DNA of 64,000 bases, from NCBI GenBank assembly GCA_943787535.1, contig CALSMU010000009.1, positions 1 through 64,000 of the forward strand, in the 5' to 3' direction. A program made the translations under genes and the position numbers. The first letter of the stretch is position 1. Each line of letters starts with the position of its first letter. Under the pieces are notes generated by a model. That model did no database searches, was not told the DNA's origin, and saw nothing but the letters and a program-made list of their open reading frames with translations. The DNA comes from an uncultured Flavobacteriales bacterium (lineage in GTDB: Bacteria > Bacteroidota > Bacteroidia > Flavobacteriales_D > Parvicellaceae). Shown in pieces: positions 2-37,354 of the stretch.

Positions 2-946
2 ATATTCAGAATTGATCATTACCTTGGAAAAGAGACGGTACAAAACATTATGGTTTTGCGATTTGCTAACCATCTTTTCGAGAGAGCATGGAATGCGGAA
101 AATATTGAAAACATACAAATTACGGTATCAGAAAGTTTAGGTGTAGAAAAGCGAGCGGGATATTATGATAACACCGGAGCTCTATTGGATATGATTCAAA
201 ATCATCTTTTACAACTCCTTTGCCTAATAGCCATGGAGCCACCTGCAAGCTTAAATCCAGATTCTGTACGAAACGAAAAAGTAAAAGTTCTTCAGTCACT
301 AAGACTTTTCAAGCCTTCAACAATCAAAGGCAATGTGGTGCGTGGTCAATACACCAGAGGTGCAAATGGTAATGAAAAATTAAATTCTTACCTCGAAGAC
401 ATTGAAAAATACAATTCAGAAACAGAGTCATTTGTCGCCATAAAGGCTTATATAGATAACTGGCGATGGAAAAATGTACCAATCTATCTCAGGACTGGCA
501 AACGAATGAAAAAAAGATATTCCGACATTGTTATTAACTTCAAGGAATTACCGCACAATATCTTTCCAGACTCTGAACACCGACTAAGAAATAAGTTAAT
601 TATTCGTCTTCAGCCTGAAGAAAGAATAGAGCTAGTTCAACTGAGTAAAATACCGGGTCCAGGAGGCTACAGATTTAAACCAATTTCTTTAAAACTTGAT
701 TTTATAGATTCTTTCAAAGATCCCATGCCAAGAGCCTATGAAAGATTAATTATTGACATTATCCGGGGAAATCAAACTCTATTTATGCGTCATGATGAAT
801 TAGAAGCGGCTTGGAATTGGATTGAGTCAATTAGTGCTTTTTGGAATAAAGAGATACCACTGTCATTATATGAATCGGGAACATGGGGCCCTGGAGATGA
901 AATTCTTGAAAAAAACACAAAATGGGAAACCAAAGATTCGAAATAA
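2..946 (+). CDS. zwf: Glucose-6-phosphate 1-dehydrogenase, 5'-truncated by the window edge
   Basis: Oxidises glucose-6-phosphate to 6-phosphogluconolactone with NAD(P)+, the entry to the Entner-Doudoroff and oxidative pentose phosphate routes; cytosolic. The frame is open from base 2 and already contains the active-site signature RIDHYLGKE (nt 8-34), so the N-terminal Rossmann domain lies outside the window; about 314 of the usual roughly 490-500 residues are present. The C-terminal G6PD domain is complete and shows family blocks such as GYYDNTGALLDMIQNH, the YLRTGKR motif and a terminal GPGDEIL region. An ATG at nt 50 is internal and is not the start. The end overlaps pgl by 25 nt, which indicates one operon with pgl, edd and eda. 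Identification is firm. Confidence 0.96.
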   Translation: MFRIDHYLGKETVQNIMVLRFANHLFERAWNAENIENIQITVSESLGVEKRAGYYDNTGALLDMIQNHLLQLLCLIAMEPPASLNPDSVRNEKVKVLQSLRLFKPSTIKGNVVRGQYTRGANGNEKLNSYLEDIEKYNSETESFVAIKAYIDNWRWKNVPIYLRTGKRMKKRYSDIVINFKELPHNIFPDSEHRLRNKLIIRLQPEERIELVQLSKIPGPGGYRFKPISLKLDFIDSFKDPMPRAYERLIIDIIRGNQTLFMRHDELEAAWNWIESISAFWNKEIPLSLYESGTWGPGDEILEKNTKWETKDSK

Positions 947-1620
947 CTAATATATTCTTCGATAAGAACATACTTTTTAGATCGATGGTAGATTCTATCA
1001 TTGAAGAGCTCAAAGATGTAATTATCAGAAAAGGAGAAGCTACCATGTTACTATCTGGAGGCAGTACTCCTGGTCCTTTATATAAGTTATTAGATGAAGA
1101 ATGTGCCTTTTTAGAAAAAATCAAAATCGGATTGGTAGATGAGCGATACGTTCCTGTTTCAAGTGAATTCAGCAATGAAAAGTACATAAAAAACTGTTTT
1201 TCCAAGCATCCTGAAGCGTTTTACCAAATAACGGGAATGGTAATAGATTCAGAAGATGAAAAAAAAAACATAGACCATGTAAACTCTAAATATCAAGATT
1301 TTCTAAACCAAACAGATATTGTAATACTTGGAATGGGAACAGATGGACATATAGCCTCTATTTTTCCGGAGGACAAGGAATCTTTGCGAGCTCTTTTAAC
1401 AAGCGAAAAAACAATTCTTAAAACCAAAGCTCCGAGCAAACCGTCTCATCGTATTACTTGTAGTATGAAAATGATAACTGAAGCAACTAGTATATACATG
1501 CTTTTTCATGGCAATGAAAAAAGAAAAGTGCTACATGATAAAACTCAATCTTTACCTATTCATGATTTACTTGAAAAAAGAAAAGATGTTAAAATATTTT
1601 ACCTAGATGATGATAAATAA
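922..1620 (+). CDS. pgl: 6-phosphogluconolactonase
   Basis: Hydrolyses 6-phosphoglucono-lactone to 6-phosphogluconate, the second step after Zwf. The 232-residue product is of normal length for the NagB/RpiA-fold (DevB-type) enzyme. Family signatures are SGGSTPGPLY near residues 45-54, VDERYVP at 72-78 and GMGTDGHIASIFP at 137-149; the His in GHIAS is the conserved catalytic-region residue of the family. The start overlaps the zwf end by 25 nt and the stop overlaps the edd start by 14 nt, so the three are probably translated in a coupled way. Confidence 0.96.
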   Translation: MGNQRFEITNIFFDKNILFRSMVDSIIEELKDVIIRKGEATMLLSGGSTPGPLYKLLDEECAFLEKIKIGLVDERYVPVSSEFSNEKYIKNCFSKHPEAFYQITGMVIDSEDEKKNIDHVNSKYQDFLNQTDIVILGMGTDGHIASIFPEDKESLRALLTSEKTILKTKAPSKPSHRITCSMKMITEATSIYMLFHGNEKRKVLHDKTQSLPIHDLLEKRKDVKIFYLDDDK

Positions 1621-3406
1621 AAAAATAAAAGAAATAACTGATCGTATTATTGAACGGAGTAAAACAGAACGTGACTCCTATCTAGAATCAGTAGCTTTTA
1701 ATTTTAATAATTCCGGAGGAAGAAGTCAGTTGAGTTGCGGAAATCTTGCACATGCATTTGCTGGATGTGGAACATCCGATAAAAAAATAATTTCAGAAGG
1801 TATTGAACCAAATATTGGAATTATTTCTGCTTATAACGATATGCTTTCTGCGCATAAGCCCTATGAGCACTACCCCGAAGAAGTTAGAAAATATGCGAAT
1901 GAAATGAACGCAACCGTGCAAGTAGCAGGCGGAACACCAGCAATGTGCGATGGTGTAACTCAAGGTCAACCAGGAATGGACCTTTCTTTATTAAGTCGGG
2001 ATATAATTGCTTTATCTTCAGCAATTGGACTCTCTCATGATATGTTTGACGGAGTTATGAATCTTGGGATTTGCGACAAAATTGTCCCTGGGTTATTAAT
2101 CGGCAATCTTAGCTTTGGACATTTACATTCTATCTTTATTCCCGGTGGACCCATGCCAACCGGGATTTCGAATGAAGAGAAAGGGAAAATTCGACAAGAT
2201 TTTGCAGAAGGTAAAATAGGAAGAGAAGAACTTTTGAAAGGAGAATCAGATTCTTACCACTCTCCCGGAACATGCACCTTTTATGGCACAGCCAATAGCA
2301 ATCAAATGTTAATGGAAATAATGGGTTTACAGCTTCCTGGGTCGAGTTTTGTAAATCCAGATACTAAAATGAGAAGAGCACTTAACAAAGAAGCTGTTTG
2401 TGTTTTATTAGAAAATATTCGGACAAAGAATCAATCAAGAATCATCGGAAGAATAATTGACGAAAAGTGCATTGTAAATGGAATTATTGGATTGCTTGCA
2501 ACCGGAGGTTCTACAAACCACACGTTACACCTAGTAGCAATAGCCAAAGCTGCTGGGATCTCCATAAATTGGCAAGATTTTTCTGATCTCTCGGAAGTAA
2601 TCCCATCTATAACAAGAGTATATCCAAATGGACCTGCAGATATCAATCATTTTCATGCAGCGGGAGGTATGGCTTTCGTTATTAGTACATTATTAGAGCA
2701 AGGCTTATTGCATAAAGATGTAAATACTATCATAGGAAAAGGACTAGAACTTTACACCAGAGAACCGAAACTACAGAATAGTACAATACAATATAAAGAA
2801 GGACCTAAGAAATCTTTAAATGATACCATAATACGTTCTGCAAACAATCCATTCCAAAAATCAGGTGGACTAAAAGTACTTAAGGGAAATATTGGTGTTG
2901 CTGTCATTAAAACTTCTGCTGTTGATCCATCCAACTATATTATTGAAGCAGAAGCTATTGTTTTTGATCATCAAAATGATTTAATCGAGGCCTTTCAAGC
3001 CGGGCAACTGGAAAAAGATTTTGTAGCAGTAATTCCCTTCCAAGGTCCAAAGCATAAAGGTATGCCTGAATTACACAAACTAACTCCTTCTCTCACAATA
3101 TTACAAAAAAGAGGTTTTAAGGTAGCTTTAATAACCGATGGAAGAATGTCTGGAGCATCCGGAAAAGTGCCCGCAGCAATTCACGTAAGCCCCGAAGCAA
3201 GCACGGGAGGAGTAATTGGAAAAATTAAGACGGGTGATCGAATAACTTTAGATGCATCAACTGGTGTATTCAATTGCTTGGAAAAAGAAATTGAAAATAG
3301 ACCAAACAGAATAGTGAACTATGATGATATGAGTCATGGTCGTCAGTTATTCAAAAACCTTAGAGGACTTATTTCTGAAAGTGAAAAAGGCGCAGGAATT
3401 TTATAA
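1607..3406 (+). CDS. edd: Phosphogluconate dehydratase (Entner-Doudoroff)
   Basis: Dehydrates 6-phosphogluconate to 2-keto-3-deoxy-6-phosphogluconate (KDPG). At 599 residues it matches the IlvD/Edd family. Iron-sulfur ligand candidates are visible: Cys114 in CDGVTQG, Cys156 in CDKIVPG, and a later Cys in PGTCTFYGTANSNQ. The AGGTPAMCDG and DGRMSGASGKVPAAIHVSPEA blocks are typical, and the long N-terminal region with ISAYNDMLSAHKPYEHYP favours Edd over the dihydroxyacid dehydratase IlvD. The start is the first of two adjacent ATG codons, inside the end of pgl. The gene context (zwf-pgl-edd-eda) confirms the assignment. Confidence 0.96.
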   Translation: MMINKKIKEITDRIIERSKTERDSYLESVAFNFNNSGGRSQLSCGNLAHAFAGCGTSDKKIISEGIEPNIGIISAYNDMLSAHKPYEHYPEEVRKYANEMNATVQVAGGTPAMCDGVTQGQPGMDLSLLSRDIIALSSAIGLSHDMFDGVMNLGICDKIVPGLLIGNLSFGHLHSIFIPGGPMPTGISNEEKGKIRQDFAEGKIGREELLKGESDSYHSPGTCTFYGTANSNQMLMEIMGLQLPGSSFVNPDTKMRRALNKEAVCVLLENIRTKNQSRIIGRIIDEKCIVNGIIGLLATGGSTNHTLHLVAIAKAAGISINWQDFSDLSEVIPSITRVYPNGPADINHFHAAGGMAFVISTLLEQGLLHKDVNTIIGKGLELYTREPKLQNSTIQYKEGPKKSLNDTIIRSANNPFQKSGGLKVLKGNIGVAVIKTSAVDPSNYIIEAEAIVFDHQNDLIEAFQAGQLEKDFVAVIPFQGPKHKGMPELHKLTPSLTILQKRGFKVALITDGRMSGASGKVPAAIHVSPEASTGGVIGKIKTGDRITLDASTGVFNCLEKEIENRPNRIVNYDDMSHGRQLFKNLRGLISESEKGAGIL

Positions 3407-3413
3407 GATAAAT

Positions 3414-3974
3414 ATGCAAAACAATATAGAAAATATTTTAAAATATAATCCTCTTATACCTGTAGCTACTATTGAAAGTGTAGATGATATAGATACTATC
3501 TATAACCAGTTGGTTGCACAAAATGTTAGATGCATCGAAATTACCCTTCGAACAGAGGTTGCTTGGAATGCAATTTCTATCTTTCAAACTAAATATGGTT
3601 CGGAATTTAAAATTGGTGTTGGCACCGTTGTTTCAGTTGAAGATATAATTAAATGCGAAAAATTGGATGTCGACTTTATAGTAAGTCCGGGATATAGCGC
3701 ATCAATGCTAAAGCAATATAAAAAGAGTAAATTACCTTTTCTTCCGGGTGTATCGACTCCTGGAGAAATAATTCAAGGAATTGAGGACGGCTGCCAATTC
3801 TTCAAGTTATTTCCAGCCAATCTATTTGGAGGAATTGATGCTTTGAAAACCTACAACAACGTTTTTCCAAATGTTAAATTTTGTCCTACTGGAGGAATAA
3901 ATGAAAATAATCATCATTCGTTTCTAGCTTTAAACAATGTTATTTCTGTTGGAGGATCTTGGTTAATTAAATAG
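3414..3974 (+). CDS. eda: KDPG/KHG aldolase
   Basis: Cleaves KDPG to pyruvate and glyceraldehyde-3-phosphate, completing the Entner-Doudoroff route. From the ATG at 3414 the product has 186 residues. Catalytic residues of class I KDPG aldolases are in place: Glu42 and Arg46 in EITLRTE, and the Schiff-base Lys131 in FKLFPA; GVGTV and the phosphate-binding PTGGI motif also match. An upstream ATG at 3336 would add 26 residues that overlap the edd C-terminus and have no family similarity, so I prefer 3414. It lies 7 nt after the edd stop and is the last gene of the operon. Confidence 0.94.
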   Translation: MQNNIENILKYNPLIPVATIESVDDIDTIYNQLVAQNVRCIEITLRTEVAWNAISIFQTKYGSEFKIGVGTVVSVEDIIKCEKLDVDFIVSPGYSASMLKQYKKSKLPFLPGVSTPGEIIQGIEDGCQFFKLFPANLFGGIDALKTYNNVFPNVKFCPTGGINENNHHSFLALNNVISVGGSWLIK

Positions 3975-4155
3975 TAATAACGCACAAAATTAAAAAGGAA
4001 AGGTTAAAGTCCATTTGACATTCTAAATACTTTTTATCAGTTCCGACGGTGTCTCCCGGGATCTTTCTGATTTCATCTGAATACATTTAATCATGTTTTT
4101 GGGTCCAAAATTACTTATGAATAATTTAATTTAATTCAAAGTAATTATGATACTT

Positions 4156-4208
4156 ATTGTAATTTTTACTATATTCGTACAAACAATACTTATTGTACAA
4201 TATACAAT
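4156..4208 (+). promoter_or_regulatory. Promoter with two copies of a 17-bp palindromic operator
   Basis: Within the 266-bp gap after eda, the motif ATTGTA-N5-TACAAT occurs perfectly at 4192-4208 and with one mismatch (TACTAT) at 4156-4172, 36 bp apart. A -7-like element TATATTCG at 4170-4177 overlaps the first copy. A further inverted repeat ACAATA-CT-TATTGT (4183-4196) overlaps the second. The same palindrome lies at the start site of the 9510 gene. The placement over and just after the -7 element suggests repressor binding; the regulator is not in the window. Confidence 0.6.
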
Positions 4209-4240
4209 TACGGTTATTTAACTTTTTAAACTAAAACATT

Positions 4241-7200
4241 ATGAAAATCCTTTCTAGTATCACATTTCTTCTAATGGTGTTTATTGGGTTCTCCCAGACA
4301 TTACCAGAAGATTTCGAAGCATCCATAATAACCTCCGACTTCACTGATTTCGATGGTGGTGTTGCGACAGTATTACCAAACCCTCAATCTTCTGGAATAA
4401 ATACTAGCGCCACAGTTGGTCAAATTGTTCGTAATGGAGGGCTAACTTGGGGCGGAAGTAAATATACTCTTGCTGGTAATCTTGATTTCTCTACAATGAC
4501 GAATATTACGATGAAAGTCTATACAGCTGCTCCAATTGGAACTACTATTAAATTCAAACTTGAAGGAGGAGTTGGTTCAGCGGAAGTAGATGCCTTAACT
4601 ACGGTAACGGGAGCTTGGGAAGAAATCACTTGGAATTTTTCGGGAACTGCAAACACATTCAACACTATCGTACTAATGTTCGATTTTGGAAATGTAGGTG
4701 ACGGAACCGCTACCTCTACATTCTTATTTGATGATATTGAACAATCGGCATCACCATTGACGCAAATTGATCTTCCTGTTACTTTTGAATCTGCAACTGT
4801 TGATTATACAATGACAGATTTCGGAGATAATATGTCAACATTATTAGTTGACCCAACGCTTCCTACGAATATGGTTATGCAAGTGGTTAAACCATTAAGT
4901 GCTCCAACGTGGGCAGGTACAACGATAGGTACTTCTCTTGGTTTTGTAAATGCAATTCCTTTCACAGCAACTGAAACAGAGATGTCTGTTCGTGTATGGT
5001 CTCCTGATGCCGGGATTCCTGTTCGTTTGAAAGTAGAAGATCACACAGACCCTGCGATTTCAGTTGAAACTGAAGCATTGACAACGGTTGCTGGGCAATG
5101 GGAAACATTGGTTTTTGATTTCGCAAATGAGGCTTCTGGTACAGCAGCTATCAATTTTGCAAATACATATAACAAGGCTTCTATCTTCTTCAACTTCGGT
5201 ACAGATGGAGCAACGGCTGGTTCTAAAACATACTACTTTGATGACTTGATATTTTCAGCGCCACCACCTTCTGGCGATTTGGTAATCACAGCTGAAGTTT
5301 GTGGAAACACAGGAGGCTCTGAAGTTAGGATGACTGGACCTATCTGGAATTGGGATCCAACAACTGGACCAATTGCAGTTGATAATATGGATGGAACATA
5401 TACATTTACCTTATCCCCTGCTCCTACCACTGATATGGAATACCTACTAATCTTAGATGGAGTGCAAGAAGATATGGTAGCTGCAGGAACCGCATCAGGA
5501 GACTGGTCCTGTACTCCGATAACAGATAACTTTAGCTATGCAAACAGACAATGGTTAATGACTGATCCACTTTCTTTAAGCGGATTAGTATACGGACAAT
5601 GTAGCCCTTGTTCTGCACCACCTTCTGGCGATTTGGTAATCACAGCTGAAGTTTGTGGAAACACAGGAGGCTCTGAAGTTAGGATGACTGGACCTATCTG
5701 GAATTGGGATCCAACAACTGGACCAATTGCAGTTGATAATATGGATGGAACATATACATTTACCTTATCACCTGCTCCTACCACTGATATGGAATACCTA
5801 CTAATCTTAGATGGAGTGCAAGAAGATTTAATTCAAGACATGGTGGATGGTGGTAGTTGTGCACCCGTAACCGATTACTTCTCATATGCAAATAGACAAT
5901 GGTTAATGACTGACCCACTTTCTTTAAGCGGATTAGTATACGGACAATGTAGCCCTTGTTCTGCACCACCTTCTGGCGATTTGGTAATCACAGCTGAAGT
6001 TTGTGGAAACACAGGAGGCTCTGAAGTTAGGATGACTGGACCTATCTGGAATTGGGATCCAACAACTGGACCAATTGCAGTTGATAATATGGATGGAACA
6101 TATACATTTACCTTATCACCTGCTCCTACCACTGATATGGAATACCTACTAATCTTAGATGGAGTGCAAGAAGATTTAATTCAAGAGATGGTGGATGGAG
6201 GCAGTTGTGCACCCGTAACCGATTACTTCTCATATGCAAATAGACAATGGTTAATGACTGACCCACTTTCTTTAAGCGGATTAGTATACGGACAATGTAG
6301 CCCTTGTTCTGCACCACCTTCTGGCGATTTGGTAATCACAGCTGAAGTTTGTGGAAACACAGGAGGCTCTGAAGTTAGGATGACTGGACCTATCTGGAAT
6401 TGGGATCCAACAACTGGACCAATTGCAGTTGATAATATGGATGGAACATATACATTTACCTTATCCCCTGCTCCTACCACTGATATGGAATACCTACTAA
6501 TCTTAGATGGAGTGCAAGAAGATTTAATTCAAGAGATGGTGGATGGTGGTAGTTGTGCACCCGTAACCGATTACTTCTCATATGCAAATAGACAATGGTT
6601 AATGACTGACCCACTTTCTTTAAGCGGATTAGTATACGGACAATGTAGCCCTTGTTCTGCACCACCTTCTGGCGATTTGGTAATCACAGCTGAAGTTTGT
6701 GGAAACACAGGAGGCTCTGAAGTTAGGATGACTGGACCTATCTGGAATTGGGATCCAACAACTGGACCAATTGCAGTTGATAATATGGATGGAACATATA
6801 CATTTACCTTATCCCCTGCTCCTACCACTGACATGGAATACCTACTAATCTTAGATGGAGTGCAAGAAGATTTAATTCAAGAGATGGTGGATGGTGGTAG
6901 TTGTGCACCCGTAACCGATTACTTCTCATATGCAAATAGACAATGGTTAATGACTGACCCACTTTCTTTAAGCGGATTAGTATACGGACAATGTAGCCCT
7001 TGTTCTGCACCACCTTCTGGCGATTTGGTAATCACAGCTGAAGTTTGTGGAAACACAGGAGGCTCTGAAGTTAGGATGACTGGACCTATCTGGAATTGGG
7101 ATCCAACAACTGGACCAATTGCAGTTGATAATATGGATGGAACATATACATTTACCTTATCACCTGCTCCTACCACTGATATGGAATACCTACTAATCTT

Positions 7201-8278
7201 AGATGGAGTGCAAGAAGATTTAATTCAAGAGATGGTGGATGGTGGCAGTTGTGCACCCGTAACCGATTACTTCTCATATGCAAATAGACAATGGTTAATG
7301 ACTGACCCACTTTCTTTAAGCGGATTAGTATACGGACAATGTAGCCCTTGTTCTGCACCACCTTCTGGCGATTTGGTAATCACAGCTGAAGTTTGTGGAA
7401 ACACAGGAGGCTCTGAAGTTAGGATGACTGGACCTATCTGGAATTGGGATCCAACAACTGGACCAATTGCAGTTGATAATATGGATGGAACATATACATT
7501 TACCTTATCCCCTGCTCCTACCACTGATATGGAATACCTACTAATCTTAGATGGAGTGCAAGAAGATTTAATCCAAGACATGGTTGATGGAGGCAGTTGT
7601 GCACCCGTAACCGATTACTTCTCATATGCAAATAGACAATGGTTAATTACAGACTCTTTATCTATTGATGCGATTTACAACCGATGTGTTCCATGTAGTT
7701 TTCCTGATATTTCAATTACGACTGAAATTTGTGATACGGTTGGAGTATCAACTGTGAAAATTTTACGTCCTCCTAACTGGGATTGGAATAATGCAAAAGA
7801 AGGTATAAGCAATGGTGATGGAACATGGACATTTACTTATTCTCCTGCGCCAACTGATTCTTTGGAATACAGAATAGTGGTAGATGGCGTTGAAGAAAAT
7901 TTGATTCAAGAAATGATTGATGGAGCCAATTGTGCGCCAATAACAGATTATTCTTCTTATGCAAATAGGCTATGGCAATTATCTGATGGTTCTTCGATAG
8001 TTAATACATATAATACATGTGCCGACTGTAGTGGTTCAAACGATATTTTTGAGTTGTCATTAGATTTTAAAATTTATCCAAATCCAGCAACAAATAGTAT
8101 TACTATTAAAAATGCTCCTGAATCTTTTGCATATTCAATTTATAATTCAATAGGGAGCCTGATGATAAAAGGTTATGATGGATCTCAGATAGATATTTCT
8201 TCACTGGAAAATGGGATCTATTTTGTGGTGATAAATTCAGATAATTCTAAAACGCAGGCGTCATTTGTTAAAAACTAA
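4241..8278 (+). CDS. Secreted T9SS protein with jelly-roll N-terminus and eight tandem CBM-like repeats
   Basis: A 1345-residue exported protein. Residues 1-18 form a signal peptide (MKILSS...GFSQ). Residues about 20-170 and 175-340 are two related beta-sandwich modules of a kind often attached to flavobacterial GH16 glucanases. Residues 344 to about 1270 hold eight copies of a 116-118 residue domain; seven are nearly identical and the eighth has diverged. The repeat core (GPIWNWDPTTGP, DGTYTFTLSP, EYLLILDGVQ) resembles starch/glucan-binding CBM folds. The last ~70 residues (FKIYPNPATNS...) are a type A T9SS sorting domain, so the protein should reach the cell surface. The neighbouring GH16 gene suggests a role in beta-glucan capture; this is inference, as no catalytic motif is seen. 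Confidence 0.85.
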   Translation: MKILSSITFLLMVFIGFSQTLPEDFEASIITSDFTDFDGGVATVLPNPQSSGINTSATVGQIVRNGGLTWGGSKYTLAGNLDFSTMTNITMKVYTAAPIGTTIKFKLEGGVGSAEVDALTTVTGAWEEITWNFSGTANTFNTIVLMFDFGNVGDGTATSTFLFDDIEQSASPLTQIDLPVTFESATVDYTMTDFGDNMSTLLVDPTLPTNMVMQVVKPLSAPTWAGTTIGTSLGFVNAIPFTATETEMSVRVWSPDAGIPVRLKVEDHTDPAISVETEALTTVAGQWETLVFDFANEASGTAAINFANTYNKASIFFNFGTDGATAGSKTYYFDDLIFSAPPPSGDLVITAEVCGNTGGSEVRMTGPIWNWDPTTGPIAVDNMDGTYTFTLSPAPTTDMEYLLILDGVQEDMVAAGTASGDWSCTPITDNFSYANRQWLMTDPLSLSGLVYGQCSPCSAPPSGDLVITAEVCGNTGGSEVRMTGPIWNWDPTTGPIAVDNMDGTYTFTLSPAPTTDMEYLLILDGVQEDLIQDMVDGGSCAPVTDYFSYANRQWLMTDPLSLSGLVYGQCSPCSAPPSGDLVITAEVCGNTGGSEVRMTGPIWNWDPTTGPIAVDNMDGTYTFTLSPAPTTDMEYLLILDGVQEDLIQEMVDGGSCAPVTDYFSYANRQWLMTDPLSLSGLVYGQCSPCSAPPSGDLVITAEVCGNTGGSEVRMTGPIWNWDPTTGPIAVDNMDGTYTFTLSPAPTTDMEYLLILDGVQEDLIQEMVDGGSCAPVTDYFSYANRQWLMTDPLSLSGLVYGQCSPCSAPPSGDLVITAEVCGNTGGSEVRMTGPIWNWDPTTGPIAVDNMDGTYTFTLSPAPTTDMEYLLILDGVQEDLIQEMVDGGSCAPVTDYFSYANRQWLMTDPLSLSGLVYGQCSPCSAPPSGDLVITAEVCGNTGGSEVRMTGPIWNWDPTTGPIAVDNMDGTYTFTLSPAPTTDMEYLLILDGVQEDLIQEMVDGGSCAPVTDYFSYANRQWLMTDPLSLSGLVYGQCSPCSAPPSGDLVITAEVCGNTGGSEVRMTGPIWNWDPTTGPIAVDNMDGTYTFTLSPAPTTDMEYLLILDGVQEDLIQDMVDGGSCAPVTDYFSYANRQWLITDSLSIDAIYNRCVPCSFPDISITTEICDTVGVSTVKILRPPNWDWNNAKEGISNGDGTWTFTYSPAPTDSLEYRIVVDGVEENLIQEMIDGANCAPITDYSSYANRLWQLSDGSSIVNTYNTCADCSGSNDIFELSLDFKIYPNPATNSITIKNAPESFAYSIYNSIGSLMIKGYDGSQIDISSLENGIYFVVINSDNSKTQASFVKN
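5270..8034 (+). repeat. Intragenic tandem array, unit 348 bp (8 units)
   Basis: Unit starts fall at 5270, 5624, 5972, 6320, 6668, 7016 and 7364; the first unit is 354 bp and the others 348 bp. The eighth, divergent unit begins near 7705. Units 2-7 differ only at scattered positions such as CCC/CCA and GGTGGTAGT/GGAGGCAGT, indicating very recent expansion or gene conversion. Unit 1 has a different distal segment (MVAAGTASGDWSCTPI) in place of LIQxMVDGGSCAPV. Confidence 0.95.
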
Positions 8279-8301
8279 CTAATTTACTATTTTGATTAAC
8301 C

Positions 8302-8332
8302 AAAAAGAGGGAATCTTAAATTCCCTCTTTTT
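8302..8332 (+). terminator. Intrinsic terminator
   Basis: A perfect 13-bp stem AAAAAGAGGGAAT / ATTCCCTCTTTTT with a 5-nt loop lies 23 nt after the repeat-protein gene and only 22 nt before the GH16 start. It should separate or attenuate the two genes, which implies partial readthrough or a processed leader for GH16. Confidence 0.85.
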
Positions 8333-8354
8333 ATAACGAACATATTCTGAAATT

Positions 8355-9356
8355 ATGAAGCTTATATTATGGCTCTCGACAATTTTCTTTTCATCACTTT
8401 CCTATAGTCAGTATGCTCTAGTTTGGTCAGATGAATTTGATAATAACGAACTGAACCTAAACAAATGGACTTATGATTTGGGTCAAGGTGATTGGGGATG
8501 GGGTAATAACGAGCTTCAATTTTACACAAATAATAGTGCCAATATCAATGTTGATAGTGGTTATTTGCATATCATAGCAAAAAGCCAGCAATTTGCAGGA
8601 GCAAATTATACGTCTGCTAGAATAAAAACAAAAGACCTTTACGAGTTTACTTACGGAAAAGTAGAAGCTAGAATTAAAATTCCATATGGGCAGGGGTTTT
8701 GGCCGGCTTTTTGGATGCTTGGATCAAATATTGACGACGTAAGCTGGCCGTATTGTGGTGAAATAGATATAATGGAACATGTAAATAACGAAAATGTTAT
8801 TCATGGCACACATCATTATGATAACAATGGCCATAATTATATTGGCAACTCAGTAGTATGCGATGCCTCAGAGTTTCAAGTCTACAGTATTGAATGGACT
8901 CCGTATAGCATAAAATGGTATCTGAATGGCTCAATCTATTTTCAAAATTCCATAGATCCTTCGTCAGTCTCTAAAGAAGAATTCCATTCTCCTTTTTTTC
9001 TACTTCTCAATCTAGCAGTAGGAGGTTTGTGGCCTGGAAACCCTGATAGTTCTACAAATTTCCCAGGAATTATGATGGTGGATTATGTGCGCGTATATCA
9101 AAATGAATTTACTTTAATTGAAAGTGAAAATCCAAATCAGAACTTCAAAATTTACCCGAATCCAGTTAAAGATGTTCTTAACATATCAAAAGAAAACTTT
9201 ATTTCTTACCAAATCTTCACTATTGAAGGTAAAGAAATCACCCCATCATTTAAACAGCAGAAAACCATAAATGTCTCTAATCTTGATTCTGGGTTTTACT
9301 TTCTGAAAATAGAGAATATTGATGGAAGCTACTCAAAAGCAATGTTTGTAAAATAA
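8355..9356 (+). CDS. GH16 family endo-beta-1,3-glucanase (laminarinase type), T9SS-secreted
   Basis: A 333-residue secreted glycoside hydrolase. A signal peptide (MKLILWLSTIFFSSLSYSQ) precedes a GH16 domain at residues about 20-252. The family signature EIDIMEH gives nucleophile Glu136, Asp138 and acid/base Glu141. The motifs WPAFWM, GTHHY and NLAVGG are typical of laminarinases rather than agarases or carrageenases. Residues about 265-333 (FKIYPNPVKD...FVK) form a type A T9SS sorting domain. It probably cleaves laminarin or mixed-linkage beta-glucan outside the cell or on its surface; the upstream repeat protein and the Entner-Doudoroff operon fit use of the released glucose. Exact substrate specificity cannot be read from the sequence. 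Confidence 0.93.
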   Translation: MKLILWLSTIFFSSLSYSQYALVWSDEFDNNELNLNKWTYDLGQGDWGWGNNELQFYTNNSANINVDSGYLHIIAKSQQFAGANYTSARIKTKDLYEFTYGKVEARIKIPYGQGFWPAFWMLGSNIDDVSWPYCGEIDIMEHVNNENVIHGTHHYDNNGHNYIGNSVVCDASEFQVYSIEWTPYSIKWYLNGSIYFQNSIDPSSVSKEEFHSPFFLLLNLAVGGLWPGNPDSSTNFPGIMMVDYVRVYQNEFTLIESENPNQNFKIYPNPVKDVLNISKENFISYQIFTIEGKEITPSFKQQKTINVSNLDSGFYFLKIENIDGSYSKAMFVK

Positions 9357-9450
9357 TAGACTTATACATCCATTTTTCCCATTATCATGAATTCGTATTT
9401 TCTCATACAATTTTATTGCACAAAGATTTGTAAAGATCCATATCCTTTTT

Positions 9451-9500
9451 TTGATTCATAAATTAAAAAGTTTTATATTTGATATTGTAAAAAATACAAT
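9451..9500 (+). promoter_or_regulatory. Bacteroidota promoter plus operator palindrome
   Basis: TTG at 9451-9453, a 20-bp spacer and TATATTTG at 9474-9481 match the Bacteroidota consensus exactly. The palindrome ATTGTA-AAAAA-TACAAT at 9484-9500 covers the expected transcription start, a classic repressor position, and matches the operator upstream of 4241. Confidence 0.75.
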
Positions 9501-9509
9501 AAGTGTGTT

Positions 9510-9725: not shown

Positions 9726-11204
9726 ATGTTTAAAATAGGTCTGGTTTTAGTTGTTTTTTCAATATCTGCTGTAGCTAATGGACAAAATAACTACCAATTA
9801 GTTGGTGATGCATTTGGTGTTAGCAACATCAATCAACTACTCTGTGGTGAATCAGATACATGCTTCACTCTAACGCAGAATTTAACCACACAAGCTGGAG
9901 CGGTTTGGGATCAAGAACCAATAGATTTATTGGAAAGTTTTGATGCTACTTTTTGTCTTTATCTTGGAGCTAATGATGCTGGTGCAGATGGATTTGCGTT
10001 TGTTTTGAGAGGACTTTCCTCGTCTAATAGCGGAGGGTCTGGAGGAGGTATTGGATATGAAGGTATTTCTGATGCATTAGCCATTGAGTTTGATACCTGG
10101 AACAATGGAACAGCTAATGATGATATAGCTGAAGACCATACCGGAATGTATCACAATAATAATTGGCTTACCCCCTTGGTTTCATCAATAAGTTTGGACC
10201 CTTCTGGAGCCAACGTTGAAGATGGTGATACGCATACTACAAGAATTGTATGGAATGCAAATACTCAAGTAATAGATATGTATTTTGATGGAACCCTGAG
10301 AATGACGGATACAATTGATTTAATCAATGAAATTTTTAATGGTGAAAATGAAGTTTTTTGGGGATTTACCGCGTCAACTGGTGGTGCATCAAACCTCCAG
10401 CAAATTTGTTTTCCATCAAGAAGTATAGATTTATTGGATGCCACCGTATGCTATCCGGACATGGCATATTTAAGCTATTACACAGAGAATATTACGAGCT
10501 ATACATGGTATACTGAAGAAGGTGACACATTATCAGATTGGAATAGTATCGATTATCCTTTTCCTTTTCCACTGGAAGATACTATTGTAGGAATAGACGA
10601 ATCGGGAAACGTTATCTTAAGTATTGACTTTAATAATAATTCTTATGCTGATACGGCAATGGTACTTGTTGTTCAAAATCCTGCTTCTCCTTTTGCTTCT
10701 GATAGTCTAAATTACTGCCCATTGAACACCTTAGTTGTTTTAGATGCGCTAAATAATGGTATGTCCTACACGTGGAATCCAATTATTTCAAACGATCAGA
10801 CAATACAAATTGATTCCTCTCAACTTGGTTGGTATAGTGTCATAATTGAAGAGCCAATAAATGGATGTCAGAATAAAGATTCAATTTATGTTTCAACTTT
10901 TTGTGAACCGATAATTGAGTTTCCCAATGTCTTTACACCTAACAATGATGGGGTAAATGATTTTTATGAACCAATTTATGTGCTACCTGCAGAATGGGTT
11001 AAAATAGAAAGTTTTGAAATATTTAATCGTTGGGGTAATTCTATATACCTTTATACTTATCAATCTGATAGCTCCCCTAAATGGGATGGCAAACTAAATG
11101 GAAAAAATATTAGTGAGGGAGTGTATTTTTACTTAGCAGCTTATTACAATATAAAGAATGAAAACCAAGAGTTAAAACAAGGTTCTTTTCATGTTTTTAG
11201 GTAA
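9726..11204 (+). CDS. L-type lectin domain protein with gliding-motility type C-terminal (T9SS type B) domain
   Basis: A 492-residue secreted protein. A signal peptide ends around residue 20 (ANGQ). Residues about 25-225 form a legume-lectin-like fold: DGFAFVLRG, the acidic AIEFDTWNNG strand with metal-binding type Asp/Asn residues, and a closing WGFTASTGG strand. Residues about 230-395 are Ig-like. The final ~95 residues (FPNVFTPNNDGVNDFY, FNRWGN, WDGKLNGK, GVYFY) are the CHU_C/type B T9SS sorting domain. It is likely a surface carbohydrate-binding protein co-expressed with the small 9510 gene, both under the shared palindromic operator. Ligand unknown. Confidence 0.88.
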   Translation: MFKIGLVLVVFSISAVANGQNNYQLVGDAFGVSNINQLLCGESDTCFTLTQNLTTQAGAVWDQEPIDLLESFDATFCLYLGANDAGADGFAFVLRGLSSSNSGGSGGGIGYEGISDALAIEFDTWNNGTANDDIAEDHTGMYHNNNWLTPLVSSISLDPSGANVEDGDTHTTRIVWNANTQVIDMYFDGTLRMTDTIDLINEIFNGENEVFWGFTASTGGASNLQQICFPSRSIDLLDATVCYPDMAYLSYYTENITSYTWYTEEGDTLSDWNSIDYPFPFPLEDTIVGIDESGNVILSIDFNNNSYADTAMVLVVQNPASPFASDSLNYCPLNTLVVLDALNNGMSYTWNPIISNDQTIQIDSSQLGWYSVIIEEPINGCQNKDSIYVSTFCEPIIEFPNVFTPNNDGVNDFYEPIYVLPAEWVKIESFEIFNRWGNSIYLYTYQSDSSPKWDGKLNGKNISEGVYFYLAAYYNIKNENQELKQGSFHVFR

Positions 11205-14050: not shown

Positions 14051-14660
14051 ATTAAAAAATATCATACGTACCAAACGAAATTCACTAGGTCTTCGACCAG
14101 CCGTTTTATGGTACCCCTCCTCGTATAACGATGTCCGACCTTTGTTTAAAAACGCATTTAATAGTAATCAACATATGCAAGTAACCACATACATTTTGAA
14201 CGATACATATTCTACTCCATTTAGTGAACCTCTTGTGACCCATAACGCAGTAATCCATTTCGAGCTGAACACAATCATTTCTCTTGAACACCATCACAAC
14301 AACATTCCAATTATGTGTTATACTGCAAAAAGAACTTTCCAGGGAAATACAACATGTAAAAAATTCCTTTTTATCAATGCCTCTAATGAAGCTGTTAAAC
14401 AGCTTCTGACGGAATGCAAGATACCTATCTACTGCATACATAGCAGATTTTGTGTCGGAACCAGCTGGCAATCCGACATTGAAGAATTTGAACGAGTTAT
14501 TAAACAATTGAAAGTTCAATTTATATCAACAGATAAAGAATATGTCTCCTTTTCTGCTCCAGTAATTTCTAGACTGCAAAACTGCAGTATTACTTCTACA
14601 ATCTATGAAAACAAACACATAAACATTGACTCTAGAAACATCCTAACTCATAAAATATGA
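14043..14660 (+). CDS. Hypothetical protein (205 aa)
   Basis: An unrecognised soluble protein that starts with a basic segment (MNKLKNIIRTKRNSLG) and holds several His and Cys residues (LEHHHNN, CKIPIYCIHSRFC). No conserved catalytic pattern is certain. It sits between the 13508 gene and the receiver-like cREC gene with overlaps of 8 and 4 nt, so translation of the three is likely coupled and they may act together. Confidence 0.6.
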   Translation: MNKLKNIIRTKRNSLGLRPAVLWYPSSYNDVRPLFKNAFNSNQHMQVTTYILNDTYSTPFSEPLVTHNAVIHFELNTIISLEHHHNNIPIMCYTAKRTFQGNTTCKKFLFINASNEAVKQLLTECKIPIYCIHSRFCVGTSWQSDIEEFERVIKQLKVQFISTDKEYVSFSAPVISRLQNCSITSTIYENKHINIDSRNILTHKI

Positions 14661-15025
14661 AAAAATATAATTTATTCTTAGACGATATCCGTTCCCCATA
14701 TTCTGTATTCTTCAAGACGCTCATCCCTCTTTACGAGCATAATTCTGATTGGATAATAGTTAAAGATTATTCTGAATTTGTATCATACATTGAAAAACAC
14801 GGCATTCCGACCGTTATAAGCTTAGACCATGATCTAAGTCAAAATCACTATCTGCCTCATAATCAAGAAGATATAGACTACTCCTCTATGGAGACTCCCT
14901 CAGGATGGCACTGTTTAAAATGGCTGATTGAACATTGTAAAAACAACAATACCACCCTACCGCAAATCCTTTTTCATACGCAAAACAAGCAGGGAGAGCA
15001 AAACATGAGAGCCTTAATCATTTGA
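14657..15025 (+). CDS. Cyclic-phosphate processing receiver-like (cREC) domain protein
   Basis: A single 122-residue domain with a receiver-like start FLDDIR (Asp9-Asp10), the central SLDHDL (Asp57-His58-Asp59) and the terminal HTQN (His107...Asn110) followed by GEQNM. This is the pattern of the cREC family, predicted to process cyclic phosphate ends of RNA or nucleotides and often found in RNA-repair or conflict loci. It is not a phosphorelay receiver, because the extra His and Asn positions replace the usual signalling face. Its ATG overlaps the upstream stop by 4 nt. The link to the nuclease-fold protein three genes upstream suggests RNA or DNA damage biology, by inference. Confidence 0.75.
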   Translation: MKKYNLFLDDIRSPYSVFFKTLIPLYEHNSDWIIVKDYSEFVSYIEKHGIPTVISLDHDLSQNHYLPHNQEDIDYSSMETPSGWHCLKWLIEHCKNNNTTLPQILFHTQNKQGEQNMRALII

Positions 15026-17965: not shown

Positions 17966-18013
17966 ATGACAGAACAAGAACAACAACTAATACAAACGAG
18001 ACTCAAGAAATGA
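17966..18013 (+). CDS. Leader peptide ORF (15 aa) overlapping the next start
   Basis: It encodes MTEQEQQLIQTRLKK; its TGA overlaps the ATG of the 18010 gene (ATGA). The same 48-bp ORF recurs at 19420 and 26270, each time before a gene starting MNTEKWQQAEAE. It begins like the heads of the other family members. It may couple translation, or be the broken start of an ancestral head. Confidence 0.5.
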   Translation: MTEQEQQLIQTRLKK

Positions 18014-19404
18014 ATACAGAAAAATGGCAGCAAGCAGAGGCGGAATTACTACTAATAAGAGTGATAATGGAAATAGACCATGCTTCAGCACCGGAGCTTG
18101 CCATGACTTTGCTTAGGGGCATAAACCAGAATGTGGATAATAGGCTGCGCAAAATGGCAGAGTATGTAAAACAACTTTCATTAACCCATCCAGAAGTACA
18201 GGAAATTACCGATAATCTTAACAGGTATCTTGCCTACACGATCAAAGGCACAACAGACAATGAATATGGAAATCATCCTATTGATTTCACTGCACGGGTT
18301 CTTGCTCTGCTTTATTTCCACCCTGATAATGAACAAGAGTTTATCAATGTGGAAACAATTGGAGGTTTTGAGCCATTAAATGCAAATGAACGCTTTTCAT
18401 TTCTTTTAGATGGATGTAGCATCGACGATGAGGGTAAACCCCAGTTTAGTAATTGGTATAATGGATGTTCAAGATCAAATTCCATCTCATTTTTTCTTCA
18501 TTTAATTGGTGAATGCCCGGAAGATTTGCATGTGGATGAATCTTTGCGCAGAAGTAATATAACAACGCTTAATTTAAGAGAAAATCAGCTCAGTGAATTA
18601 CCTTCCAGCATTGGAAATTTAACTTCTTTGACTTGGCTCGATTTAGATGGAAATCAGCTCAGTGAATTACCTTCCACCATTGGAAATTTAACTTCTTTGA
18701 CTAGTCTCGATTTAGATGGAAATCAGCTCAGTGAATTACCTTCCACCATTGGAAATTTAACTTCTTTGACTTGGCTCGATTTAGATGGAAATCAGCTCAG
18801 TGAATTACCTTCCACCATTGGAAATTTAATTTCTTTGACTAGGCTCTTGTTATCTGGAAATCAGCTCAGTGAATTACCTTCCATCATTGGAAATTTAACT
18901 TCTTTGACTAGTCTCAATTTACATGGAAATCAGCTCAGTGAATTACCTTCCACCATTGGAAATTTAATTTCTTTGACTAGGCTCTTGTTATCTGGAAATC
19001 AGCTCAGTGAATTACCTTCCATCATTGGAAATTTAACTTCTTTGACTAGTCTCAATTTACATGGAAATCAGCTCAGTGAATTACCTTCCACCATTGGTAA
19101 TTTAACTTCTTTGACTAGGCTCGATTTAGATGGAAATCAGCTCAGTGAATTACCTTCCACCATTGGAAATTTAATTTCTTTGACTAGGCTCTTGTTATCT
19201 GGAAATCAGCTCAGTGAATTACCTTCCATCATTGGAAATTTAACTTCTTTGTGGGAGCTCTTTTTAAGTGGAAATCAGCTCAGTGAATTACCTTCCACCA
19301 TTGGTAATTTAACTTCTTTGACTAGGCTCTATTTAGATGGAAATCAGCTCAGCTCAGAACAAAAGCAACAGATCAAAGCTCAGTTTCCTTTTGCTAAGGT
19401 TTAA
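18010..19404 (+). CDS. Shuffled-family protein: chimeric head + 11 LRRs (type A)
   Basis: A 464-residue cytosolic protein. Residues 1-34 (MNTEKWQQAEAELLLIRVIM...) match the heads of the 19464 and 26314 proteins. From about residue 35 (RGINQNVDNRLRKMAEYVKQ) it switches to the other head type, as in the 22689 protein. A shared linker follows (ERFSFLLDGCSI, GKPQFSNWYN, SFFLHLIGECP). LRRs begin at nt 18583: eleven 23-residue units of the form NQLSELPSTIGNLTSLTxLxLxG. The end is the common cap LSSEQKQQIKAQFPFAKV. LRRs of this plant/Ras-type spacing bind proteins; the partner is unknown. Almost all differences between units fall at exposed beta-strand positions. Confidence 0.85.
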   Translation: MNTEKWQQAEAELLLIRVIMEIDHASAPELAMTLLRGINQNVDNRLRKMAEYVKQLSLTHPEVQEITDNLNRYLAYTIKGTTDNEYGNHPIDFTARVLALLYFHPDNEQEFINVETIGGFEPLNANERFSFLLDGCSIDDEGKPQFSNWYNGCSRSNSISFFLHLIGECPEDLHVDESLRRSNITTLNLRENQLSELPSSIGNLTSLTWLDLDGNQLSELPSTIGNLTSLTSLDLDGNQLSELPSTIGNLTSLTWLDLDGNQLSELPSTIGNLISLTRLLLSGNQLSELPSIIGNLTSLTSLNLHGNQLSELPSTIGNLISLTRLLLSGNQLSELPSIIGNLTSLTSLNLHGNQLSELPSTIGNLTSLTRLDLDGNQLSELPSTIGNLISLTRLLLSGNQLSELPSIIGNLTSLWELFLSGNQLSELPSTIGNLTSLTRLYLDGNQLSSEQKQQIKAQFPFAKV

Positions 19405-19419
19405 CAATGAATAACTAAC

Positions 19420-19467
19420 ATGACAGAACAAGAACAACAACTAATACAAACGAGACTCAAGAAATGA
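19420..19467 (+). CDS. Leader peptide ORF, copy 2
   Basis: Same product (MTEQEQQLIQTRLKK) and same ATGA overlap with the following gene as at 17966. It lies 15 nt after the stop of the upstream family gene. Confidence 0.5.
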   Translation: MTEQEQQLIQTRLKK

Positions 19468-20867
19468 ATACAGAAAAATGGCAGCAAGCAGAGGCGGAAT
19501 TACTACTAATAAGGGTGATAATGGAAATAGACCATGCTTCAGCACCGGAGCTTGCCATGACTTTGGTTAAAGGCATTAATTTACAGAATCTATTTTGGCG
19601 TACCAACTTAAAGGCGGCTAGAATATTAATTCCAGAAACGATTAATTCATTCAACGGGCAAAGAAATGATAACGGACATATACCTATAAATGAGTTTCTG
19701 CAACTAGCATGGGAGGGCGAAGTTCAACATTTTAATGACGTTGTACATGATTTTACTTTAATGGCTGCTCTGTATCATTTTCATCCTCGGAATAATTATG
19801 ATGATTTTGAAGGGCCGCTGGATGGTTTTGAGCCACAGCATGCTGAGGAACGCTTTTCATTTCTTTTAGATGGATGTAGCATCAACGATGAGGGCAAACC
19901 TCAGCTTAGTGATTGGTATAATGAATTTCCACAATGCAATTCCATTTCGTTTTTTCTTTCTCTTGTTGGAGATTGTCCTGCTGACCTTAGCATTGATGAA
20001 TCGCTTCGTGTCAGAAATATAACGAAGCTTAATGTTTCTGGTTGTGGCCTTCTAACTTTACCGGGCTTGCATCGAATGACTAATTTGGAAGAATTGTTTT
20101 TTTCTTGCAATGACCTAACAAAGATTGACCTCAGCGATAACAGTAATTTGGTAAGTTTGGATTGTTCTGAAAATTTATTGCTTCAGCTTGATTTGAGCCA
20201 CAATTCAAAAATAGAATATTTGAATTGTGCTGAAAACCAACTAGGCTCCATTGATCTGTGGATGCTGACCTATTTATTTGAGTTAGATTGTTCTGAAAAT
20301 CAGCTGACCTCCCTTGATATTACAAAAAACTTGAATTTGAACTATTTAGAGTGTTGGCGTAATCAACTCACTACTTTGGATGTAAGTCAAAACAATGCAT
20401 TAACTATATTGTCGTGTTCTAATAATAAGCTCAAGATCTTAGATGTAAGTCAAAACAATGCATTAACTGAATTGAATTGTTCTCTTAATCATCTCTACCC
20501 GGTATTGGATGTAAGTCAAAACAATGCATTAACTAAATTGCACTGTTCTGAGAATCTGCTCTTTATCTTGGATGTAAGTCAAAACAATGCATTAACTATA
20601 TTGTGGTGTGGAGTTAATCAACTCACGATCTTGGATGTAAGTCAAAACAATGCATTAACTAAATTGTCGTGTGCTGAAAATCAACTTACCACCTTGGATG
20701 TAAGTCAAAACAATGCATTAACTGATTTGGATTGTCCTTTTAATAAGCTCACGATCTTGGATGTAAGTCAAAACAATGCATTAACTGAATTGAATTGTTC
20801 TTATAATGAGCTCAGCTCAGAACAAAAACAACAGATTAAAAATCAATTTTCTTTTGCTAAAGTTTAA
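19464..20867 (+). CDS. Shuffled-family protein: head type 2 + LRR tail (LDVSQNNAL type)
   Basis: A 467-residue cytosolic protein. The head (residues 1-125) has the same first 34 residues as the 18010 protein, then a different middle (GINLQNLFWRTNLKAARIL, FNDVVHDFTLMAALYHFHP). The common linker (ERFSFLLDGCSI, SIDESLRVRNIT) precedes the LRRs. These are four irregular units shared almost exactly with the 26314 protein (IDLSDNSNLVSLDCSENLL and following) and then seven units of LDVSQNNALTxLxCxxNxL. The common cap LSSEQKQQIKNQFSFAKV closes the protein. No signal peptide, so the LRRs face the cytosol. Confidence 0.85.
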   Translation: MNTEKWQQAEAELLLIRVIMEIDHASAPELAMTLVKGINLQNLFWRTNLKAARILIPETINSFNGQRNDNGHIPINEFLQLAWEGEVQHFNDVVHDFTLMAALYHFHPRNNYDDFEGPLDGFEPQHAEERFSFLLDGCSINDEGKPQLSDWYNEFPQCNSISFFLSLVGDCPADLSIDESLRVRNITKLNVSGCGLLTLPGLHRMTNLEELFFSCNDLTKIDLSDNSNLVSLDCSENLLLQLDLSHNSKIEYLNCAENQLGSIDLWMLTYLFELDCSENQLTSLDITKNLNLNYLECWRNQLTTLDVSQNNALTILSCSNNKLKILDVSQNNALTELNCSLNHLYPVLDVSQNNALTKLHCSENLLFILDVSQNNALTILWCGVNQLTILDVSQNNALTKLSCAENQLTTLDVSQNNALTDLDCPFNKLTILDVSQNNALTELNCSYNELSSEQKQQIKNQFSFAKV

Positions 20868-20882
20868 TAATGAATAACAAAT

Positions 20883-22577: not shown

Positions 22578-22619
22578 TGATTTATTTTATTGAAACAAGA
22601 TTAGAGTTATTAACACTAA

Positions 22620-22679
22620 ATGACAGAACAAGAACAAAAACAACATATCCAAGCTCAGTTTCCTTTTGCTCAATTATAA
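22620..22679 (+). pseudogene. Scar ORF, copy 2 (19 aa)
   Basis: It encodes MTEQEQKQHIQAQFPFAQL: family start joined to family end, like 17758-17817 but diverged at three residues. It is followed directly by the TATAAATTTATA leader that also precedes the 17966 ORF, and then by the 22689 gene. Confidence 0.65.
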
Positions 22680-22688
22680 ATTTATAAC

Positions 22689-24149: not shown

Positions 24150-24154
24150 CGCAA

Positions 24155-26254: not shown

Positions 26255-26269
26255 CAATGAATAACTAAC

Positions 26270-26317
26270 ATGACAGAACAAGAACAACAACTAATACAAA
26301 CGAGACTCAAGAAATGA
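26270..26317 (+). CDS. Leader peptide ORF, copy 3
   Basis: Identical product to the ORFs at 17966 and 19420 (MTEQEQQLIQTRLKK), again with its TGA overlapping the ATG of the downstream MNTEKWQQ gene. Confidence 0.5.
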   Translation: MTEQEQQLIQTRLKK

Positions 26318-27282: not shown

Positions 27283-27291
27283 AACTAAACA

Positions 27292-29928: not shown

Positions 29929-30135
29929 CAGAACAAGAACAAGAACAAGAACAAGAGCAAGAGCAAGAACAACATCTAATAAAAGCAATACTGCGAATAG
30001 ACCAGGAACCGATGGGTGATTTTGAGCCACAAATATCAAGCATGCCTCATCCTAGTATCTGGTATAATGAATTTCGACAATGCAATTCAATTTCATTCTT
30101 TCTTTCACTTGTTGGAGATTGTCCTGCTGGTACCA
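29925..30135 (+). pseudogene. Decayed shuffled-family gene (head and linker fragment)
   Basis: It starts MTEQEQ followed by an expanded EQ repeat, then HLIKAILRIDQEP. It jumps directly to the linker (GDFEPQ, IWYNEFRQCNSISFFLSLVGDCPAG) that matches the 19464 gene (SDWYNEFPQCNSISFFLSLVGDCPAD). About 100 head residues and the tail are missing. The frame stays open to 30332, but beyond 30135 it reads antisense to the probable small RNA and resembles nothing in the family. Confidence 0.75.
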
Positions 30136-30141
30136 ATAGAA

Positions 30142-30170
30142 TAAAAAAACCACACCTCTATTGGGTGTGG
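30142..30170 (-). terminator. Intrinsic terminator of the candidate small RNA
   Basis: On the minus strand a 7-bp stem CCACACC / GGTGTGG is followed by seven T residues (complement of 30143-30149). The + strand lacks a T-tract after the stem, so the terminator works for the minus strand only. Confidence 0.75.
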
Positions 30171-30282
30171 CTGCCTTTAGTTTCTAATGAACTTAAGGAC
30201 TTTATTTATTCCTCTTTTCTTGGTTGGCTTTTACCTTTAGTCTATATTGAACCTAGGATGTTTTCTTTTCTTCCGTATTCTT
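30142..30282 (-). ncRNA. Candidate small RNA (about 141 nt)
   Basis: On the minus strand a consensus promoter (30319-30289) predicts a start near 30282, and an intrinsic terminator ends near 30142. No ORF with a sensible start fits between them. The transcript contains two imperfect repeats, each with AAGAAAAGA, then a GTTCA block and ACTAAAGG. I do not recognise the RNA class. No cas, TnpB/IscB or reverse-transcriptase gene lies nearby. Confidence 0.55.
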
Positions 30283-30288
30283 ATAACA

Positions 30289-37214: not shown

Positions 37215-37302
37215 CAACTTCAATTACGATTGGATCTGTATATTTTCTAATAAATAGTTTTCTTTCTTTGGAATAGCACCTTTTAACAATGTTTCGATTC
37301 TT

Positions 37303-37333: not shown

Positions 37334-37354
37334 GGAATATCAAAAAAGTAAATT

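Follow-up and report, generated by a model that had tools for sequence, protein, structure and literature searches.

AraR (BT0354) of Bacteroides thetaiotaomicron is composed of a Nudix-like domain and a winged helix and regulates arabinose genes. As described in the structural account of PMC4666351, the apo-dimer of AraR spans 25 bp of DNA, with Lys179 touching the first G of GTGT and Arg180 intercalating beside that base; when L-arabinose binds, the winged helices rotate and affinity falls. The gel-shift oligonucleotides printed there carry GTGTA-N5-TACAC-type sites, the spacing being our reading of those oligonucleotides. XylR (BT0791), as presented in PMC3878776, is also of the NrtR family and controls a xylose regulon; the XylR of PMC12125979, which by that account is of another kind, was set aside as a comparison. 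SoNrtR (3gz5) binds ADP-ribose and regulates the metabolism of nicotinamide adenine dinucleotide (NAD). In Pseudomonas, the RpiR-family regulator HexR is described as binding TTGT-N7/8-ACAA operators at zwf, edd, and gap-1 and as responding to 2-keto-3-deoxy-6-phosphogluconate (KDPG) (PMC5489143, PMC5902321). Here, we analyze three palindromes in the first 64,000 nucleotides (the window) of contig CALSMU010000009.1 from an uncultured Flavobacteriales bacterium of the Parvicellaceae (assembly GCA_943787535.1). These palindromes are very probably operators of a dimeric, sugar-released NrtR-family repressor with a Nudix-like domain and a winged helix, close to Bacteroides AraR, that governs glucan and Entner-Doudoroff genes.

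A pattern search of the window finds perfect copies of ATTGTA-N5-TACAAT at 4192-4208 (ATTGTACAATATACAAT) and 9484-9500 (ATTGTAAAAAATACAAT) and a copy with one mismatch at 4156-4172 (ATTGTAATTTTTACTAT), exactly where a sequence-only reading of this DNA had placed them. An additional one-mismatch copy at 14934-14950 lies within the open reading frame (ORF) 14657-15025 and is probably a chance match. With up to two mismatches, the window has 18 matches, compared to a mean of 8.6 and a maximum of 15 in 100 shuffles. The 17-bp palindrome is real as sequence, but the functional site extends over about 21-25 bp (Table 1). The -7 box of Bacteroidota promoters has the consensus TAnnTTTG. Boxes of this kind are abutted or overlapped by the operators at 9482, mgsA, and gapA and overlapped by the one at 4154, and the zwf operator is located just upstream of its box. 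The earlier description of the palindromes as lying at or just after -7 elements is therefore accurate for 9482, which directly follows its box, and for 4154, which overlaps it; it is loose for 4190-4210, which is separated by 12 bases from the box TATATTCG (4170-4177).

Evidence for a regulon comes from a sequence-only model of 25 positions that was built from 25 aligned sites of relatives only, two of which duplicate others in the set. The genome searched is 3.15 Mb in 25 contigs (C-numbers) and is 94% complete. Because 150 of the 7127 first-look candidates were scored, some weaker sites may have escaped the search. The window site at 9484 ranked first. At E<0.5, 13 places remained after strands and contig overlaps were collapsed, including all three window sites; the matches after 9484 were at mgsA, the lectin/regulator intergenic region, gapA, 4154, 4190, the symporter, C5:4985, C21:88019, and zwf. 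Twelve of the 13 precede zwf(-pgl-edd-eda), the second gapA, mgsA, a sodium/solute symporter, lectins, secreted proteins, or the regulator gene. In the window itself, the model returns the three operators and one weak extra match at 32549. The recovery of all three window sites beside other sugar promoters by a model from relatives supports the proposal of one regulon under one regulator.

That regulator was predicted to be encoded elsewhere, and this is the case: a genome search found only two NrtR_WHD genes, on C16 and C23, which are 90%-identical paralogues with Nudix and winged helix-turn-helix domains and which both have the operator adjoining. The C16 protein matches the Pfam families NrtR_WHD (E 1.4e-26), AraR_C (7e-14), and NUDIX (5e-6), with NUDIX and NrtR_WHD above their cut-offs. 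As in the NrtR family, a Nudix-like domain is followed by an NrtR winged helix and a palindromic operator is found beside the regulator's own gene and its targets. The Nudix box is degenerate; D, K, E, V, D, and L stand where the consensus has G, E, R, E, E, and E, and hydrolase activity would not be expected from such a box. The nearest named regulator loci belong to metagenome-assembled genomes of Flavobacteriales and Crocinitomicaceae. A limited literature search turned up no regulator of the NrtR/Nudix kind for hexose, laminarin, or Entner-Doudoroff genes in Bacteroidetes. The regulator/lectin/mgsA/symporter region is present in two copies (C16 and C23) that are 85-91% identical over their longest aligned pieces, as could result from a duplication or from a mixture of strains. 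In the same genus, the regulator of G003 (C1:7446-8140) is found as two overlapping fragments with several stops, and this gene may be broken, although the mgsA operator of that genome is intact.

The closest solved relative is BtAraR (5bs6/5ddg; E 7e-48), which shares the domain architecture and, by our reading of the printed oligonucleotides, the operator geometry xTGTA-N5-TACAx. Among the 12 DNA-contact residues named in PMC4666351, seven are kept here (D178, R180, N181, R183, K184, R205, and A207) and five are changed (S163T, K179T, K200E, K204H, and A208K). The conserved AraR set of K179, R180, N181, K184, K204, and R205 is thus retained at four positions and replaced by Thr at 179 and His at 204. 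Judged by its sequence, the regulator is NrtR/AraR-like by family and departs from AraR's conserved DNA contacts. The base contacted by AraR Lys179 also differs, with the G of AraR operators being T in the operators here. While AraR serves an arabinose regulon, the regulon predicted here is one of hexose/Entner-Doudoroff and glucan genes; no arabinose catabolism gene was recognized behind any of the 12 regulon places, in a survey that included no search aimed at arabinose genes. Adhaeribacter NrtR genes located beside a gene read as xylulokinase have the same ATTGTA-N5-TACAAT site as here. SoNrtR matches the regulator over both domains (E 1e-24), but at 143.8 bits the protein falls well short of the NCBIfam NtrR cut-off of 400 bits.

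The binding pocket gives some indication of the ligand. The AraR residues that hydrogen bond with L-arabinose, R34, R86, and H131, are kept as R40, R92, and H138, while F36 and G48 are each replaced by Asp, F49 by Leu, and the neighboring G89 by Phe. Of the four SoNrtR residues described as contacting phosphates, Arg41 is kept, and Asn43, Lys76, and Arg98 correspond to Asp, Leu, and Phe here. Because the sugar-hydroxyl residues are kept and three of the four phosphate contacts are replaced, a neutral sugar is favored. Our guess would be glucose, some other neutral hexose, or a short glucan product, and from these residues the chances that it would be glucose or a gluco-oligosaccharide are about even.

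The agreement between residues 179-181 and the operator base was examined in 221 regulator loci by collecting sites of the form TTAxTGT-N7-ACAxTAA with at most one mismatch in the 12 fixed bases. This gave 74 distinct sites close to the regulator, and two loci that have two residue types were treated separately. Sorted by residues 179-181 (AraR numbering), base x is mostly G with KRN (G36, T3, A3) and RRN (G4) and mostly T with TRN (T45, A11, G5, C1), KAN (T20), and KGN (T8). The rarer classes are IRN (G1, T1), VRN (T2), KPN (A1, T1), and KSN (A1, C1). Fifty-nine loci have one residue type, of which 11 were tied or had neither base and 48 were scored by the majority of half-site bases. All 48 show agreement between residue class and base class, 31 being non-(K/R)RN with T and 17 being (K/R)RN with G. 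The AGTGT form is also found at promoters that are unlinked to the regulator in genomes with KRN regulators, namely zwf in G009, gapA in G011, G024, and G018, and the small-protein gene in G013 and G005. G029 has the AGTGT form too, but with a regulator homologue of only 33% identity. An earlier version of this test on the first 80 loci was set aside because DTRNFRKK, one of six search peptides, favored Thr. As a separate observation, the genes of the KAN regulators at L132, L271, L282, and L288 are closely followed by a pair of TTATTGT-type sites spaced 129-150 bp apart, which is another kind of tandem operator layout.

A scan of genome contigs for the regulator yielded 80 of 101 loci, and the 28 nearest were analyzed apart from the remaining 52. 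With at most one mismatch, ATTGTA-N5-TACAAT occurs 25 times in the 28 nearest loci, compared to 1-6 times for five scrambled halves and to at most 7 matches at any other spacer within 0-11. By a simple ORF caller, 22 of these 25 sites fall between genes, ahead of the regulator, zwf, gapA, a presumed xylulokinase gene, and other genes. In the remaining 52 loci, mostly of Prolixibacteraceae and relatives, the motif is not in excess, nor is it in a census of palindromes with 6-mer halves that covered 51 of them. When that census was run on 31 loci (the 28 nearest, L075, and the two of this genome) over all halves and spacers of 1-12, the most frequent palindromes were TATTGT-N7 (22), TTATTG-N9 (17), and ATTGTA-N5 (13), which all describe the same motif. 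Apart from runs of N, the other halves listed occurred no more than 6 times each.

Individual promoters were surveyed in 60 genomes, including this one (G000). Upstream of zwf, where up to 3 mismatches of 16 to the ATTGT form were accepted, a threshold that admits AGTGT-type variants, a site was found in 10 of the 11 zwf-carrying genomes, this one included. For gapA, 30 upstream regions of 61 genes were examined: four have ATTGT-type sites (G000, G051, G015, and G008), four have AGTGT-type sites (perfect in G011 and G024, with two mismatches of 14 in G018 and G049), and two have mixed sites (G006 and G014). The eight gapA orthologues of genus g3 have nothing better than 3 mismatches. For the 69-amino-acid protein encoded at 9510, the operator is upstream in all eight loci fetched, from 16 places found, and in none of 2000 first-order shuffled upstream regions; its operator is therefore the most conserved that we examined. 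In three of these loci (G013, G029, and G005), it is of the AGTGT type. In G008 (L348/L191), the small-protein gene is found just 3' of the operator-bearing gapA and has an operator of its own.

Several results weigh against the NrtR-family repressor as the reader of these sites. On a phylogenetic tree, the residue class and the base class each change 6 times, but supported branches provide only 3 independent pairs, all concordant, which are too few for significance (sign test p 0.25). The Thr class is inflated in the first 80 loci by the peptide used to fetch some of them, and although whole-protein searches added loci, these 80 remain among the 221. The gapA site is missing in 9 of 16 orthologues with at least 58% identity, and among 26 mgsA loci, one of which has too short an upstream for a verdict, the site is restricted to the five from this genus. 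The one exception among the 13 model matches, C21:88019 (E 0.21), is likely a false match by chance. Other contrary results also favor the view that another transcription factor uses these sites and that the NrtR gene is a mere neighbor or another target. G001 and G002 (88% and 82% complete) have sites, but the regulator was not found in them, and several sites are on contigs other than that of the regulator gene. Some unlinked promoters break the residue-base rule, namely zwf of G005 and gapA of G006, which are mixed ATTGT/AGTGT with KRN regulators, and zwf of G043, the one miss in the zwf survey, which has a degenerate AGTGT-like stretch with a KAN regulator. A different factor would not be expected to follow residues 179/180 in every scored locus or at the unlinked zwf, gapA, and small-protein promoters of G009, G011, G024, G018, G013, and G005, nor would it account for the reported AraR-DNA crystal contacts, in which Lys179 touches the varying base and Arg180 intercalates beside it. 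We consider this explanation improbable.

Two further explanations are less probable again. A true HexR, released by KDPG and controlling Entner-Doudoroff genes through TTGT-N7-ACAA, would account for the half-site, the spacing, the targets zwf, edd, and gap, and the position of several operators near +1, all of which resemble what is reported for Pseudomonas. However, this 94%-complete genome has no RpiR HTH_6 gene above the family cut-off, its single weak HTH_6 match (20.9 bits vs a cut-off of 28.3) overlaps an ORF read as MntR-like, and across relatives the sites track the NrtR gene; a HexR is thus very unlikely. The NrtR-type regulator belongs to an unrelated protein family, and the replaced phosphate contacts contrast with the KDPG effector of HexR. 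The best reading is that it is analogous but unrelated, working like HexR without being one. The palindromes might instead be chance AT-rich repeats or core-promoter features without a regulator, and genome-wide counts, which also weigh against the repressor reading, are where this idea finds its support. The perfect 12-base core occurs at 8 places, the same as a reversed control, and the 21-bp form with 3 mismatches occurs 132 times vs 166 for its control. Frequency alone is therefore no proof of the motif, and the core count was dropped as evidence. Because C5 overlaps C9 (99.75% over 7.6 kb) and C16 overlaps C24 (99.97% over 6.6 kb), the 8 core places collapse to 6. Four of these are at promoters (4192, 9484, and two mgsA paralogues), and the two inside ORFs (C9:153479 and C9:233934) give no model match, even at E 10 in a direct search of their loci with default filters. 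The sequence-only reading had named an equal rate at random, non-promoter places as its refutation, and by counting against the control the proposal does not come cleanly through that check. TTATTGT-N7-ACAATAA with at most one mismatch has 13 matches vs 8 in the control, and its 11 collapsed places include 8 at regulon promoters, with all 5 perfect ones among them, and 3 elsewhere (C1:227434, C9:48968, and C25:1405). In our view, the ranking by the relatives-only model, the conservation of the small-protein site, and the peak at spacer 5 refute chance, which is the least credible account of the sites.

For the NrtR-family repressor, the sites, their regulon membership, the match of regulator to operator, and the agreement of residue and base were computed here, while dimer binding, repression, and release by sugar would follow the example of AraR. 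In the proposed mechanism, the ligand-free dimer would sit on TTATTGTA-N5-TACAATAA over the -7/+1 region and block transcription, and at zwf it would be bound just upstream of the -7 box. When a glucan-derived sugar enters the cell, its binding would turn the winged helices and the dimer would leave. The secreted repeat, lectin, and glucanase proteins, the symporter, the Entner-Doudoroff operon, the second gapA, and mgsA would then be derepressed together. The regulator had been called a repressor from the start, and the position of the operators and the likeness to AraR suggest as much. Operators that abut or overlap -7-like boxes fit steric repression, and the others may serve activation.

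Table 1. Predicted operators, putative regulon genes, and candidate regulator genes. Coordinates are those of the window unless a contig is named; E, E-value under the relatives-only model for operators; T9SS, type IX secretion system.
Feature	Location	Strand	Remarks
zwf (3' part), pgl, edd, eda	50..3974	+	Entner-Doudoroff genes; zwf operator outside the window, contig C5:9390-9410
Operator 1	4154..4174	.	TTATTGTAATTTTTACTATAT; overlaps -7-like box TATATTCG (4170-4177); E 0.011
Operator 2	4190..4210	.	TTATTGTACAATATACAATTA; starts 36 bp past the start of operator 1; precedes repeat protein gene; E 0.0195
Secreted repeat protein	4241..8278	+	C-terminal T9SS tail; 5262-7654 holds about 6.9 copies of a 348-bp repeat
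GH16 glucanase	8355..9356	+	T9SS tail; starts 76 bases past repeat gene; without its own operator among the matches
-7-like box	9474..9481	+	TATATTTG; immediately 5' of operator 3
Operator 3	9482..9502	.	ATATTGTAAAAAATACAATAA; genome rank 1; E 0.001
Small protein, 69 amino acids	9510..9719	+	Conserved in relatives; operator upstream
L-type lectin protein	9726..11204	+	CHU_C T9SS domain
Regulator copy 1	C16:7819-8526		NUDIX + NrtR_WHD + AraR_C in 7819-8529
Regulator copy 2	C23:5590-6297		90% identical paralogue

The palindromes had been proposed to control the promoters of a glucan locus. The repeat protein and the small protein-lectin pair do share the motif, but the regulon is wider and includes zwf, the second gapA, mgsA, the symporter, and a second lectin. 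The glucanase gene at 8355 probably follows the repeat gene. The zwf gene heads a zwf-pgl-edd-eda operon whose 3' part forms the start of the window, and its site on C5 is between zwf and a divergent ORF with weak likeness to N-acetylglucosamine kinase. On C3, a one-mismatch site is immediately 5' of the second gapA; another glyceraldehyde-3-phosphate dehydrogenase is encoded on C10. A further site is 5' of a gene for a T9SS-tailed protein, which itself comes after a GH3 gene. On C16 and in the paralogous C23 region, sites are found before mgsA, between a large L-type lectin and the regulator gene, and before the sodium:solute symporter. The 69-amino-acid protein belongs to no Pfam or NCBIfam family and had no match in a plasmid search. 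The overlapping contig C5 ends within the 348-bp repeat array (5262-7654) with its frame broken there, which is probably assembly trouble in the repeat.

Two other features were seen in the window. An ORF at 33729-35333, read as a serine recombinase, is followed by a 190-amino-acid ORF (35364-35936) that is nearly a repeat of the C-terminal portion of gene 40343-41506, and the region 33729-41506 looks like the scar of an integrated element. At 18010-30332, related genes that have a EQQLIQAILRIDHASAPE-type region at the N terminus follow one another as a tandemly expanded family, and several of them include leucine-rich repeats.

In these Bacteroidota, glucan breakdown seems to be tied to the glucose-burning pathway through a repressor. 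On balance, we favor a history in which Bacteroidota evolved a hexose repressor from an arabinose/xylose/NAD-type Nudix regulator, converging on the HexR half-site and on Entner-Doudoroff targets. A two-residue switch at AraR positions 179/180, where K/R-R reads G and T-R or K followed by a small residue reads T, would have rewritten unlinked regulon operators several times. The analysis provides a named candidate regulator for joining glucan breakdown to central carbon flux in these bacteria and a naturally occurring switch in specificity, backed by structure, at one residue-base pair, and it marks the conserved 69-amino-acid protein as a core member of the regulon.

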